This document shows, piece by piece, positions 6,929 through 31,586 of a stretch of 32,161 bases of DNA; positions within the stretch are counted from its first letter, which is position 1; each line of letters starts with the position of its first letter. Location of the stretch: contig CAMDFP010000014.1 in assembly GCA_945897335.1 (NCBI GenBank), positions 1-32,161 on the forward strand. Reading direction: 5' to 3'. Below the pieces are notes generated by a model. It was not told where the DNA came from and made no database searches. It worked only from the letters and a program-made list of their open reading frames with translations. This DNA comes from Asaia bogorensis. Its GTDB lineage: Bacteria > Pseudomonadota > Alphaproteobacteria > SHVZ01. The position numbers and the translations under genes were made by a program.

Positions 6929-6937
6929 CGGATCGTT

Positions 6938-7000
6938 CCCGTGGGGATTTGAGCCGACCGGCTTGCGGCCCACGTTAAATAAAACCGCTAAAAGGTCGGG
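6938..7000 (+). ncRNA. SAM-II riboswitch aptamer
   Basis: The segment matches the SAM-II class known upstream of metX/metZ/metA-type genes in Alphaproteobacteria. Stem P1 is CGTGGG (6940-6945) with CCCACG (6969-6974). The loop carries the conserved GATTTGAGCC and a small AGCC/GGCT hairpin. GCGG (6965-6968) can pair with CCGC (6985-6988) to form the pseudoknot, and the typical tail GCTAAAAGG follows at 6987-6995. SAM binding to this class lowers expression of downstream methionine-synthesis genes. The fit to conserved positions and the location before metZ make the call strong; exact ends are approximate. Confidence 0.9.
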
Positions 7001-7009
7001 ACCAAGTGC

Positions 7010-7039
7010 GCCCCGACCGAGACCGGCCGGGGCTTTTTT
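7010..7039 (+). terminator. Intrinsic terminator in the metZ leader
   Basis: The arms GCCCCG (7010-7015) and CGGGGC (7028-7033) form a GC-rich stem, extended inward by CC/GG beyond one mismatch, and are followed directly by six T residues (7034-7039). A competing 7-bp pairing, GGTCGGG (6994-7000) with CCCGACC (7012-7018), uses part of the same 5' arm, so the two structures exclude each other. The 5' half of the competitor begins right at the end of the SAM-II aptamer. This arrangement would let SAM binding favour termination (inference). Confidence 0.75.
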
Positions 7040-26905: not shown

Positions 26906-27547
26906 TTAAGGCTCCGCGTCCGGCTGCTTCGACGGCTGCGCCCGATCGAAGGCGGCCTCCCTCATGCAGGCGTCGTAGATCCTCGCGATCGTCGGGTAGG
27001 GGCCGAGATCGAGGCTATAGCGCTTCGAGTTGAACACCTGCGGCACCAGGCAGATATCGGCGAGGCCCGGAGCGTCGCCGTGGCAGAAGCGGCCCGTGGC
27101 CCTGTCCTTCGCCAGCGTCGCCTCGAGCCCGGTGAATCCCAGCGCGATCCAGTGATTGAACCAGCGTCCGACCGCCGCGTCGTCGGCCTTCAGCTCGCGC
27201 TGGAGGTATTGAAGGACCCGCAGATTGTCGATCGGGTGGATGTCGCAGGCGACGATCTGCGCTAGCGCCCGTGCCCGCGCGCGGTCCGCAGGTGACTTCG
27301 GCAGAAGCGGCGGCGCGGGATGAGTCTCGTCCAGATACTCGATGATCGCGAGCGACTGGGTGAGGGCGTGAGGCCCATCCTCAAGGGTCGGGACCAGTGC
27401 CTGGGGATTGAGGCCGAGGTATTCGGCGCTGGTCTGGTCCCCCTTCCGCAGATGGACGAAGGCATTCTCGTAGGCGAGCCCTTTCAGGTTGAGGGCGATG
27501 CGCACGCGGAAGGCGGCGGAGGAGCGGAAATAGCCGTGGAGCTTCAT
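26906..27547 (-). CDS. maiA: Maleylacetoacetate isomerase
   Basis: The 213-residue protein is a zeta-class glutathione transferase, which converts maleylacetoacetate to fumarylacetoacetate with glutathione. The N-terminal thioredoxin-like domain has YFRSSAAFRVRIALN (6-20), where zeta enzymes usually have SSCSWRVR, so Cys is replaced by Ala next to the catalytic Ser. VPTLEDG and LTQSLAIIEYLDE form the glutathione-binding site, and ICLVPQVFNSKRY is the characteristic C-terminal motif. It is the last gene of the homogentisate operon. The gene context (fahA, hmgA, hppD upstream) supports the name. Confidence 0.93.
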   Translation of the reverse strand: MKLHGYFRSSAAFRVRIALNLKGLAYENAFVHLRKGDQTSAEYLGLNPQALVPTLEDGPHALTQSLAIIEYLDETHPAPPLLPKSPADRARARALAQIVACDIHPIDNLRVLQYLQRELKADDAAVGRWFNHWIALGFTGLEATLAKDRATGRFCHGDAPGLADICLVPQVFNSKRYSLDLGPYPTIARIYDACMREAAFDRAQPSKQPDAEP

Positions 27548-27580: not shown

Positions 27581-28573
27581 CTACGACGCCGGATCGGCGC
27601 GGACGACCGTCTGCTCGATCGCGCCGAAGACCGAGTGGCCGCCGGCGTCCTGCATCTCGAGGCGGATGGTGTCGCCGAACCGCATGAACGGAGTCTTCGG
27701 CTTGCCTTCGTCGATGGTCTCGATCATCCGGACCTCGGCGATGCAGGTCCAGCCCTTGGATCGGTCGCGGTTGGAGATGGTGCCCGAGCCGATCAGGGTG
27801 CCGGCGGCAAGCGGGCGGGTCCGCGCCGCATGCGCGATCAACGCCGGGAAGTCGAACTGCATGTCTGCGCCGGCGTCGGGACAGCCGACCTGCCGGCCGT
27901 TGAGGGTGGCAATCAGGGGCAGGTGCAGCTTGCCGCCGTCCCAGGCGGAGCCCAGTTCGGCCGGATCGACCGCGACCGGCCCGAAGGCCGTCGGCGGCTT
28001 CCCGTGGAAAAAGCCGAAGCCCTTCGCCAGCTCGTTCGGAATCAGATTCCGGAGGCTCACGTCGTTGACCAGGAGGACGAGCTTGATGTGGCTTCGCGCC
28101 GCCTCGGCCGTCACGCCCATCGGCACGTCGTCGACCGCGACCGCCACCTCGCCCTCGAAGTCGATGCCCCAGTCCTCGGTCGCGGCCGGGATCGGGTCGG
28201 TCGGCGCGAGGAATCGGTCGGAGCCGCCCTGGTACATCAGCGGGTCGTGGAGGAAGGAGGGCGGCATCTCCGCGCCTCGCGCCTTCCGCACCAGCTCGAC
28301 GTGGTTGAGATACGACGAGCCGTCGGCCCACTGATAGGCGCGCGGAAAGGGCGAGGCGAGATCCTTAGCGTCGAGCGCGAAGGCGTCGGGCGCGCGGCCT
28401 TCGCCGAGAAGGCGGTAGATCGAGCGGAGCTCCGGCGCGGCGCGGTCCCAGTCCTCGATCGCTGCCTGCAGGGTCGGTGCGATCTTCGGCACGCGGACGG
28501 CGCGGGAGAGGTCGCGGGAAACGACGACCAGCGTGCCGTCGCGGCCACCCTGCTTCAGCGAACCCAGCTTCAT
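27581..28573 (-). CDS. fahA: Fumarylacetoacetate hydrolase
   Basis: The 330-residue protein belongs to the FAH family and would split fumarylacetoacetate to fumarate and acetoacetate, the last step of the pathway. The metal-binding DFEGE segment lies at 138-142 (E140, E142) with D171 in LVNDVSLRN as a further ligand. GKPPTAFGPVAV, HLPLIATLNG and LIGSGTISN are family motifs. The bacterial form here is shorter than animal FAH (about 420). ATG 28573 follows GAGGAGAGG; the frame upstream belongs to the hmgA end. It is 13 bases downstream of hmgA. Confidence 0.93.
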   Translation of the reverse strand: MKLGSLKQGGRDGTLVVVSRDLSRAVRVPKIAPTLQAAIEDWDRAAPELRSIYRLLGEGRAPDAFALDAKDLASPFPRAYQWADGSSYLNHVELVRKARGAEMPPSFLHDPLMYQGGSDRFLAPTDPIPAATEDWGIDFEGEVAVAVDDVPMGVTAEAARSHIKLVLLVNDVSLRNLIPNELAKGFGFFHGKPPTAFGPVAVDPAELGSAWDGGKLHLPLIATLNGRQVGCPDAGADMQFDFPALIAHAARTRPLAAGTLIGSGTISNRDRSKGWTCIAEVRMIETIDEGKPKTPFMRFGDTIRLEMQDAGGHSVFGAIEQTVVRADPAS

Positions 28574-28586
28574 CGGATGCCTCTCC

Positions 28587-29729
28587 TCACTCGGCCGCGT
28601 CCGGCTTCTTCTTCCAGGAGTCGACGTAGCCCGTCCACTCGACTCCCTCCGGCATGAGGCCGATGTCGAGGGCATCGCGGGCATCGACCATCACCGCCAC
28701 CTCGTCCAGCATCTGCCCGCCCGCCGACTTGGCGGCAAGAGCGAAGGCCTTCGGATGGGGCCCGTGCGGGAAGCCGCAGGGATGCAGCGTCACCATGCCG
28801 GGATGGATGTTGTCGCGGCTCATGAACTTGCCGCGGTGATAGAAGATCATCTCATCGAAGTCGTCGTTGTTGTGGAAAAACGGCAGTTTCAGCGCGCCAG
28901 GGTCGCTCTCCGCCGGCCTCGGCGCGAAGGTGCAGACGACGAAGCGGGACGCCAGGAAGGTCGTGTGCGCCGAAGGCGGCAGATGGTAGCGGTGGCTCAT
29001 CACCGGCCTGATGTCGCGCCAGTTGAGGCGGACCGGTGTCAGCGTGCCCTGCCAGCCGACGGCGTCCAACGGGTTGTAGGGATAGGTGATGGTCGAGAAC
29101 AGGCCGCGGCGCTTCACCGTCACCCGCCACGCGTCTTCCGTCTGCTGCGCCTTGAACGCCTCGTCCATCGCCGGCACGTCGAGCACGCCCGGATCGAAGA
29201 CGGCGTGGGCGCCCAGCGGACCACGGTCCGGCAGCCGATAGCCGTCGTTGGTGGCCTCGATCAGCAGCGCGGTCATCGCCGATGTCGGCGTGATCCGCCA
29301 CTGCGTTCCGCGCGGCAAGATCACGTAGTCGCCGTCGCGGATCGCGAGGTGGCCGTAGTCGCAGAAGAGGTCGCCGTCGCCTTCGTGGACGAAGATCAGC
29401 TCGTCGCCGTCGCTGTTCCGCACAAGATGATCCATCGCGCCGTCGAGCCGCCAGTGGCGGATGCGGACATGCGCGTTGTGCAGCACCTCGACCGCGTCCC
29501 AGGGCGAGGCCTGGGCGGCGTTGAGTTTGGCGAGGTCGAAGGCTCGTGGCTTCAGCGGGCCGTCCCAGTCGACCCAGCCGGTCGGCGGGTGGCGGTGATA
29601 CATCTGGGTCGCCGGGCCGAAGAAGCCCTCCTTGCCGATCTCGCGCTCGTAGGTTCCGGCCGGCAGGTCGGCATGGGCCTGGCGCGAGGCGACACCCTCG
29701 CGGCGGGGAAGGGAGATCCAGTCCTTCAT
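28587..29729 (-). CDS. hmgA: Homogentisate 1,2-dioxygenase (short form)
   Basis: The 380-residue cupin-fold enzyme would open the ring of homogentisate with O2 and Fe(II) to maleylacetoacetate. The metal-binding region is FFHNNDDFDEMIFYHRG (285-299) with H286 and an acid at 292-293, then HPCGFPHGPHP (316-326), where H322 matches the HGPD-type ligand of classical enzymes. Length is clearly below the usual 430-450, and the N-terminal sequence differs from classical HmgA. It belongs to a shorter alphaproteobacterial type, in my reading. Its ATG overlaps the hppD stop by 4 bases (ATGA). Context leaves little doubt about the reaction. Confidence 0.88.
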   Translation of the reverse strand: MKDWISLPRREGVASRQAHADLPAGTYEREIGKEGFFGPATQMYHRHPPTGWVDWDGPLKPRAFDLAKLNAAQASPWDAVEVLHNAHVRIRHWRLDGAMDHLVRNSDGDELIFVHEGDGDLFCDYGHLAIRDGDYVILPRGTQWRITPTSAMTALLIEATNDGYRLPDRGPLGAHAVFDPGVLDVPAMDEAFKAQQTEDAWRVTVKRRGLFSTITYPYNPLDAVGWQGTLTPVRLNWRDIRPVMSHRYHLPPSAHTTFLASRFVVCTFAPRPAESDPGALKLPFFHNNDDFDEMIFYHRGKFMSRDNIHPGMVTLHPCGFPHGPHPKAFALAAKSAGGQMLDEVAVMVDARDALDIGLMPEGVEWTGYVDSWKKKPDAAE

Positions 29730-30796
29730 GCCGTCAGCACTCCCCGGTTGATCTGGTCCTGCTCCATGGATTCGAACAGGGCTCGGAAATTGCCCTCTCC
29801 GAAGCCCTCGTCGCCTTTCCGCTGGATCAGCTCGAAGAAGATCGGACCGATCACGGTCTTGGTGAAGATCTGCAGCAGGATGCCGCCATTCTCGGTCGGC
29901 GCGCCGTCGATCAGGATCTTCTCGCGCTTGAGGCGGGCGACGTCCTCGCCATGGCCGGGCAGGCGCTTGTCCAGGATCTCGTAGTAGGTGTCGGGAACGT
30001 CGGACAGGAACTCGACGCCGCGTTGCTTCAGGCGCTCGACCGCGTCGTAGATGTCGCCGCAACTGAGCGCGATGTGCTGGATGCCCTCGCCGTTGTAGGC
30101 GTGGAGGTACTCCTCGATCTGCGATTTCTCGTCGGAGGATTCGTTGATCGGGATGCGGATCTTGCCGCAGGGGCTGGTCATCGCCTTGCTCTTGAGGCCG
30201 GTCAGCTTGCCTTCGATGTCGAAGTAGCGGATCTCGCGGAAGTTGAAGAGGCGCTCGTAGAATCTGGCCCATTCGTCCATGCGGCCGCGATGGACATTGT
30301 GGGTCAGGTGGTCGATGGTCATCAGCCCGACGCCCTTGGCGTCCTGGTCGGTTCCTGCGATCGGCTTGAAGTCGACGTCGTAGATCGAGCGGTCGCCGTA
30401 GCGGTCGACCAGGTAGATCAAGCTGCCGCCGATGCCGCGGATCGCCGGGATGTTCAGCTCCATCGGGCCGACCCGGGCCTCGACCGGCTTGGCGCCGAGG
30501 TCGACCGCACGCTTGAAGGCGGCGGCGGCGTCCTCGACCCGGAAGGCCAGCGCGCAGACCGAGGGGCCGTGCACGCGGGCGAAGGACTGGGCGAAGCTGT
30601 CGGGCTCGGCATTGACGATGAAATTGACGTCGCCCTGGCGCCAGAGCGTCACGTCCTTGGACCGGTGGCGAGCGACCGCGGTGAAGCCCATGGTCTTGAA
30701 CAGCTGGCCCAGGGCCTGGGGGTCGGGGGCGGTGTATTCGACGAACTCGAAGCCGTCGGTGCCCATCGGGTTCAGAGTCCCCGCCTTCTGGGTCAT
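29726..30796 (-). CDS. hppD: 4-Hydroxyphenylpyruvate dioxygenase
   Basis: The 356-residue protein is a two-domain vicinal-oxygen-chelate enzyme that makes homogentisate from 4-hydroxyphenylpyruvate. The iron ligands are H163 (IDHLTHNV), H241 (GIQHIALSC) and E322 (IFFELIQRKG). The segment GFGEGNFRALFESME near the C-terminus closes the active site. Length is typical of bacterial HppD. ATG 30796 has AAGGAG at 30808-30803, 6 bases upstream; the frame ahead of it is the promoter region. It is the first gene of hppD-hmgA-fahA-maiA. Its promoter contains the palindromic operator described separately. Confidence 0.96.
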   Translation of the reverse strand: MTQKAGTLNPMGTDGFEFVEYTAPDPQALGQLFKTMGFTAVARHRSKDVTLWRQGDVNFIVNAEPDSFAQSFARVHGPSVCALAFRVEDAAAAFKRAVDLGAKPVEARVGPMELNIPAIRGIGGSLIYLVDRYGDRSIYDVDFKPIAGTDQDAKGVGLMTIDHLTHNVHRGRMDEWARFYERLFNFREIRYFDIEGKLTGLKSKAMTSPCGKIRIPINESSDEKSQIEEYLHAYNGEGIQHIALSCGDIYDAVERLKQRGVEFLSDVPDTYYEILDKRLPGHGEDVARLKREKILIDGAPTENGGILLQIFTKTVIGPIFFELIQRKGDEGFGEGNFRALFESMEQDQINRGVLTA

Positions 30797-30806
30797 GTGG
30801 CGCTCC

Positions 30807-30835
30807 TTGACGAAGGGTCGGTGGGCTGAGATATT
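30807..30835 (+). promoter_or_regulatory. Promoter of marR
   Basis: TTGACG (30807-30812) and GATATT (30830-30835) are separated by 17 bases. Transcription would start near 30842-30843, one or two bases before ATG 30844, so the message is nearly leaderless. The -35 shares bases with the hppD ribosome binding site. Confidence 0.6.
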
Positions 30836-30859
30836 AGTTTCGAATGAAACTAATGCCAA
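30831..30859 (-). promoter_or_regulatory. Promoter of the hppD operon
   Basis: Reading leftward, TTGGCA (30859-30854) and TAATAT (30836-30831) are 17 bases apart. The start would be near 30824, giving a leader of about 28 bases. The spacer is almost entirely the operator palindrome, so a bound regulator would block RNA polymerase. Confidence 0.65.
30833..30854. promoter_or_regulatory. Palindromic operator for the MarR-type regulator
   Basis: A perfect inverted repeat, ATTAGTTTC and GAAACTAAT, is separated by GAAT. It fills the hppD promoter spacer, overlaps the edge of its -10, and covers the marR start codon (30844-30846). Size and symmetry suit a MarR dimer. That the adjacent regulator binds it is inferred. 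Confidence 0.8.
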
Positions 30860-31359
30860 GCCCTGAGACGGAAACACCCGAGGTGGCCGGCAGCCTCATC
30901 CTCGAGCGCTTCGTCCCCTACAGGCTCTCCGTCCTTTCCAACACCGTCAGCCGGGCGATCGCCCGCATCTATGCGGAACGCTTCGACCTGACGATCCCGG
31001 AATGGCGGGTGATGGCCCAGCTCGGCCGCCACGGCCGGCTCTCGGCCAGCGACATCGTCGGATTGACCGCCATGGACAAGGTCCGGGTCAGTCGCGCCGT
31101 CGCCCGCCTGACGGCTTCGGGGCGCGTTGTCGCGGTCGCCGACGAGACCGATCGCCGGCGCCAGCTCCTCACTCTCGCCGCGGCCGGCCGGCGCATCTAC
31201 CGCGAGATCGTCCCGCTCGCGCTCGAACGGGAAGCGCGGCTCCTGGAGGCGCTGGAGCCGGGGGAGCGCCAGATGCTCGACCGGCTGCTCGCCAAGCTCC
31301 AGGCGCAGGCGCTCAGGCTCGCGCCGGAGGCCGGAGGACGGGTCGGCGAGCCGGATTGA
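30844..31359 (+). CDS. MarR-family regulator of homogentisate genes
   Basis: The 171-residue protein is a winged-helix MarR-type repressor. The segment around residues 50-110 contains IPEWRVMAQLGRHGRLSASDIV (helix-turn-helix), KVRVSRAVARLTASGRVVAV (recognition helix) and the wing DETDRRRQLLTL. Long N- and C-terminal helices for dimerisation flank it. The divergent position to hppD and the palindrome over both promoters point to control of tyrosine or homogentisate catabolism and of itself. ATG 30844 or the in-frame ATG 30853 could start; both lie in the operator. The inducer may be homogentisate or hydroxyphenylpyruvate (inference). Confidence 0.9.
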   Translation: MKLMPSPETETPEVAGSLILERFVPYRLSVLSNTVSRAIARIYAERFDLTIPEWRVMAQLGRHGRLSASDIVGLTAMDKVRVSRAVARLTASGRVVAVADETDRRRQLLTLAAAGRRIYREIVPLALEREARLLEALEPGERQMLDRLLAKLQAQALRLAPEAGGRVGEPD

Positions 31360-31446: not shown

Positions 31447-31543
31447 GAGAGGTTGGGCGGTGGACGGGCTCCTCGCCAACCCGGTCAGGTCCGGAAGGAA
31501 GCAGCCGTAACGAGTTTCGGCCCGGGTCGCTGCCCAGCCTCTC
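31447..31543 (+). ncRNA. ffs: Signal recognition particle RNA, small bacterial type (4.5S)
   Basis: The apical domain GTCCGGAAGGAAGCAGC (31489-31505) followed by CGTAACGA is the conserved Ffh-binding loop with GGAA tetraloop. The ends pair as GAGAGGTTGGGC (31447-31458) and GCCCAGCCTCTC (31532-31543) with one G-T wobble. This gives a single 97-base hairpin of the short type. With Ffh it targets membrane proteins to the translocon. It lies 43 bases before dnaX, a common bacterial neighbour. No T-rich terminator follows. Confidence 0.95.
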
Positions 31544-31586
31544 ACCCTAGTCTCAAGATCCAAGGCGCAGGAACCCGGCCGGAAGC

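Follow-up and report, generated by a model that had tools for sequence, protein, structure and literature searches.

A predicted MarR operator lies across the overlapping promoters of hpd and a divergent marR gene in Asaia bogorensis

Introduction

How might a single short sequence govern two genes that are read away from each other? The stretch of Asaia bogorensis DNA analysed here (32,161 nucleotides, contig CAMDFP010000014.1; hereafter the window) raises this question in the gap between hpd, a gene of tyrosine breakdown, and a divergent gene for a MarR-family regulator, where an inverted repeat lies inside the promoter of the one and on the start codon of the other.

Four genes on the minus strand, which by their sequences encode the homogentisate pathway and are all read in one direction, lie to the left of the repeat. 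The first, hpd (29726..30796, ATG at 30796), encodes a 4-hydroxyphenylpyruvate dioxygenase of 356 amino acids (TIGR01263, 425 bits, cut-off 277), and its end overlaps by 4 nt a gene for an hmgA-type homogentisate dioxygenase (28587..29729). The hmgA homologue scores above cut-off for Pfam HgmA_N and HgmA_C and below that of TIGR01015, and is therefore a divergent form. A fumarylacetoacetate hydrolase-like gene follows (Pfam FAA_hydrolase, E 1.5e-33), given here as its longest open reading frame (27581..28684) and probably starting nearer 28574, and then maiA for maleylacetoacetate isomerase (26906..27547; TIGR01262, 281 bits, cut-off 171).

On the plus strand, marR (30844..31359) encodes a winged-helix protein of 171 amino acids (Pfam MarR_2, E 2.6e-11) which passes the MarR family cut-offs (PF12802, 43.9 bits, cut-off 27; PF01047, 28.3 bits, cut-off 24.6) and whose structure model has the helix-HTH-wing-helix order behind a disordered N-terminal tail of about 18 residues. 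It stays under the equivalog cut-offs of the named NCBIfam regulators HpaR, BilQ and BagL/FevM, the best being BilQ (42.5 bits, cut-off 125), with HpaR at 29.9 bits (cut-off 121.2). A bacterial small SRP RNA (31449-31544, plus strand) lies 3′ of marR and before a dnaX-like ORF.

Results

The repeat, a predicted MarR dimer site without strand (30833..30854), reads ATTAGTTTC-GAAT-GAAACTAAT. The initial annotation had called it a perfect palindrome, which is true of the two 9-bp arms but not of the 4-bp centre, as GAAT is not self-complementary. In relatives the centre is usually CANNTG, a symmetry that the CGAATG of the window misses by one base; against the full consensus derived from those relatives, TAGTTTCA-NN-TGAAACTA, the window likewise differs by one base.

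Scanned blind for sigma-70 consensus elements, the region 30760-30900 returned exactly two promoters, one for each gene, both scoring 9/12 (shuffled sequences gave 0.0 ± 0.2). The hpd promoter (30831..30859, minus strand) has its −35 element TTGGCA at 30859-30854, a 17-nt spacer and its −10 element TAATAT at 30836-30831; the marR promoter (30807..30835, plus strand) has TTGACG at 30807-30812, a 17-nt spacer and GATATT at 30830-30835, with a TG ahead of it. The −10 elements of both match at 4/6 positions only. Placing each start point 7 nt after its −10 element predicts transcription from about 30824 for hpd and from about 30842 for marR, 18 bp apart. The operator fills the hpd spacer and touches both hpd hexamers, overlaps the marR −10 element, and covers the predicted marR start point and the marR ATG (30844-30846). 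In both respects, its place in the leftward spacer and its cover of the marR start, the earlier description was correct in sequence and coordinates, and the bases that it had the two −10 elements sharing amount to five of six hexamer positions, the hexamers being offset by one base. The packing extends to both sides: the hpd Shine-Dalgarno sequence AAGGAG (30803..30808, minus strand) overlaps the marR −35 element by 2 bases, and the first marR codons, ATG AAA CTA ATG CCA AGC (30844..30861, plus strand), also hold the right operator arm and the hpd −35 element.

Within the window the 14-base core TAGTTTC-N4-GAAACTA occurs once at up to three mismatches (0.07 expected). In the whole genome (5.0 Mb, 95.8% complete) the operator is the single site at up to two core mismatches, and it alone was found when up to three mismatches to the 18 arm positions were allowed; the genome scan that had been proposed as a check yields this one site at these thresholds.

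The comparison covered marR orthologues of 60 related genomes and of a set of named genomes; the two collections overlap, with a few genomes counted twice. An operator was called where the core matched at 11/14 positions or more within 250 nt upstream of marR. By this rule the core was present in 71/98 loci with a strong marR match, giving 63 non-redundant sites, while the reversed pattern was found in 1/98 and shuffled regions gave 0.5%. Several orthologues (e.g. L009, L014-L016, L065 and L066) had no recognisable site within the 250 nt upstream. Thalassobaculum-like genomes (L033, L040, L048, L061, L087) carry tandem operators, exactly 28 nt apart, before hpd.

The marR start codon is predicted to lie within the operator, on an mRNA that would be leaderless. 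The predicted leader, judged from the −10 position, is about 2 nt long and there is no Shine-Dalgarno sequence; a TAG triplet in the marR frame (30835-30837, part of the left arm and three codons before the ATG) means that no marR start is possible upstream of 30844. Among the relatives, 14 non-redundant loci have an in-frame ATG at the same operator position, TTG codons at this position having been left out as real starts, and in 13/14 the left arm provides the same in-frame TAG three codons ahead of it. In 12/14 of these loci vs 8/49 of the others, a TTGAC box precedes the operator by 25-27 nt (Fisher p = 3e-6, not corrected for relatedness). With the box at this distance, transcription of marR would begin 1-2 nt ahead of the ATG, which suggests a leaderless message. 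Such messages are known from Alphaproteobacteria, amounting to 7% in Methylorubrum (PMC9320726) and to 119 transcripts in Zymomonas (PMC7566282).

It is unlikely, in our estimate, that marR instead starts downstream behind a conventional leader, with the operator covering promoter and leader only. Both ATG 30853 and GTG 30883 are in frame and the disordered tail of some 18 residues would accommodate such a start, but neither codon has a Shine-Dalgarno sequence, and in 7/14 loci (L004, L006, L025, L026, L036, L095 and L111) the conserved domain is preceded by no start codon other than the ATG in the operator. Two of these loci, L004 and L025, are copies of the hmgA-hpd/marR region in one same-genus assembly (G001), with regulators 83% and 79% identical; they reflect either a duplication or a mixed bin.

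On the other side of the operator, the sequence CAA (the reverse complement of TTG) starts at +23/+24 from the first operator base in 50/63 loci, which indicates that the hpd or hmgA −35 element keeps a fixed distance from the operator. This bears on the sense of regulation. Some MarR proteins activate a target while repressing their own gene, activators occur among the local regulators of aromatic catabolism, and the 28-nt spacing of paired operators in Thalassobaculum and its relatives would allow more complex control there. We nevertheless regard activation of hpd by bound MarR as improbable in the window, where the operator lies between the −35 and −10 elements of a normal 17-nt promoter, so that a bound protein would block polymerase, and the distance from −35 element to operator is fixed across relatives. 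The standard 17-nt spacer, together with the central position of the operator, argues for steric repression over activation, and from sequence we favour this over an untwisting of the MerR type.

Whether the adjacent MarR is the partner of the site can be judged from where the site is found. All 55/55 loci with a close divergent hpd or hmgA carry the operator beside the regulator gene (some genomes being in the sample twice); in Azospirillum and others the divergent neighbour is hmgA instead of hpd, and the same operator is present. Where hpd or hmgA is codirectional with marR and upstream of it, the operator would be expected at hpd and should be absent at marR, a prediction that could have failed. 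The outcome was as expected: none of the 12 such loci has an operator ahead of marR, and in 9/9 that were readable it stands 49-78 nt before the hpd match, at 10-14 of 14 core positions. A genome-wide search across 11 genomes, with three mismatches to the core allowed, was discarded as too loose, as it gave 7-34 matches each and the reversed control gave more; the test was therefore redone at the hpd promoters themselves, with the result just given. In Lysobacteraceae (Gammaproteobacteria) the operator matches at 12/14 or better in 14/14 fetched loci, with a divergent hpd visible in 13.

These comparisons of sequence strongly support the view that the operator belongs to the adjacent MarR, travelling with its regulator and relocating to the target promoter; they lend equally strong support to the initial proposal that tyrosine breakdown is governed by a compact MarR switch acting both ways. 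That the palindrome is instead bound by another MarR paralogue, or serves several regulons, we hold to be very improbable. In favour of this, a perfect TAGTTTC-N4-GAAACTA stands immediately before the gene of another MarR paralogue (L124, G067:C3:126703-126720), so that the identity of the bound MarR cannot be read from the arms by themselves, the half-site being, by its sequence, of a type shared within the MarR family; and in Thalassobaculum fulvum (L142, G074:C3:436911-436932) a second, operator-like site is found where a monooxygenase gene begins. Against it stand the single site in the genome of the window, the joint occurrence of site and regulator in every divergent locus, and the movement of the site with the target promoter. 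The ORF at L142 reads like an FAD-dependent monooxygenase and might be an extra regulon member; we do not claim the L124 and L142 sites, which lie outside hpd/hmgA, for the regulon.

That an AT-rich promoter gap holds this palindrome by chance has a negligible probability, since 9+9 repeats with short spacers are indeed not rare in the window (nine found vs 5.4 expected, at 68.5% GC) but this one, the sole AT-rich 9+9 repeat there (0.0 expected), is conserved across Alphaproteobacteria and Lysobacteraceae.

Discussion

We propose, with a probability of roughly 85%, that the adjacent MarR protein is an autorepressor with the palindrome as its operator, and that one bound dimer shuts a divergent, probably bidirectional promoter both ways. 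A MarR dimer on the operator would occupy the spacer of the promoter serving hpd, hmgA, fah and maiA, and would at the same time lie over the −10 element of marR, its transcription start and its ATG, excluding RNA polymerase in both directions, so that repression of the pathway and autorepression would act through one site. Release of the operator would most likely come from an intermediate of the pathway, whether homogentisate or 4-hydroxyphenylpyruvate; both the silencing of two directions by one dimer and the identity of the ligand are what we infer from the layout and the pathway.

After release, two polymerases may compete, because the two −10 elements occupy nearly the same bases. Such competition after derepression is plausible by analogy with the bidirectional promoters described in PMC12825309, which resemble the arrangement predicted here in being divergent about a shared −10 element, and for which 18 bp, the distance between the starts predicted here, is the commonest start-point spacing reported. 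They differ in that their activity was reported in E. coli, whereas the arrangement here is a sequence prediction and has an operator over the shared −10 element. More tentatively, and with somewhat less than even odds, we suggest that in this lineage the 22-bp sequence has been selected at once as operator, as part of promoters with a shared −10 element and as the opening codons of a repressor message that has no leader, the next codons holding the opposing −35 element, and that polymerase competition would lower the amount of repressor and so make a positive-feedback switch.

The regulator is a well-conserved one of known type, in an unusually tight layout. Two regulators of the same pathway invite comparison. 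HmgS, of the MarR family, was predicted to regulate hmgAB in Alteromonadales and Pseudoalteromonadales (three genomes, one taxon; PMC5343134). It resembles the MarR protein of the window in family, in being a local regulator of the homogentisate pathway and in having been inferred by comparative genomics; it differs in that Alphaproteobacteria are not among the taxa listed for it in the main text of that paper, the two being compared by description only (PMC5343134). Taken by family and by its presumed control of the homogentisate pathway, the protein of the window answers to the description of HmgS. An orthologue of it is encoded beside hpd, with the same operator, in Bowmanella (L108), which we take to be an alteromonad. 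HmgR of Pseudomonas putida is an IclR-family repressor of hmgABC, antirepressed by homogentisate (cited in PMC5343134); pathway, local repressor logic and the likely kind of ligand are alike, but the IclR family is unrelated to the MarR protein of the window. In the open-access literature, subscription journals and supplements aside, we found no description of an alphaproteobacterial MarR protein that regulates hpd.

The best structural relative of the window's protein is PDB 2FA5, a MarR/EmrR regulator (E 1e-34 with the single sequence, 3e-54 with a profile; about 45% identity) whose entry name states no function and which is presumably XC1739 of Xanthomonas campestris. A Lysobacteraceae gene (L146, G091:C20:174063-174482) is 98% identical to the aligned sequence of 2FA5, which places the 2FA5 structure in the family of the window's regulator; the operator lies between this gene and a divergent hpd. 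This context hints at a function for the crystallised protein, which the entry labels simply as a MarR/EmrR regulator.

For many Alphaproteobacteria and for Lysobacteraceae, the analysis thus offers a testable prediction of how tyrosine breakdown is controlled, comprising regulator, operator and regulon, and the very compact natural promoter, with its operator over a shared −10 element, could be used to study polymerase competition. Elsewhere in the window, a SAM-alpha riboswitch lies at 6931-7011 on the plus strand (67.5 bits).
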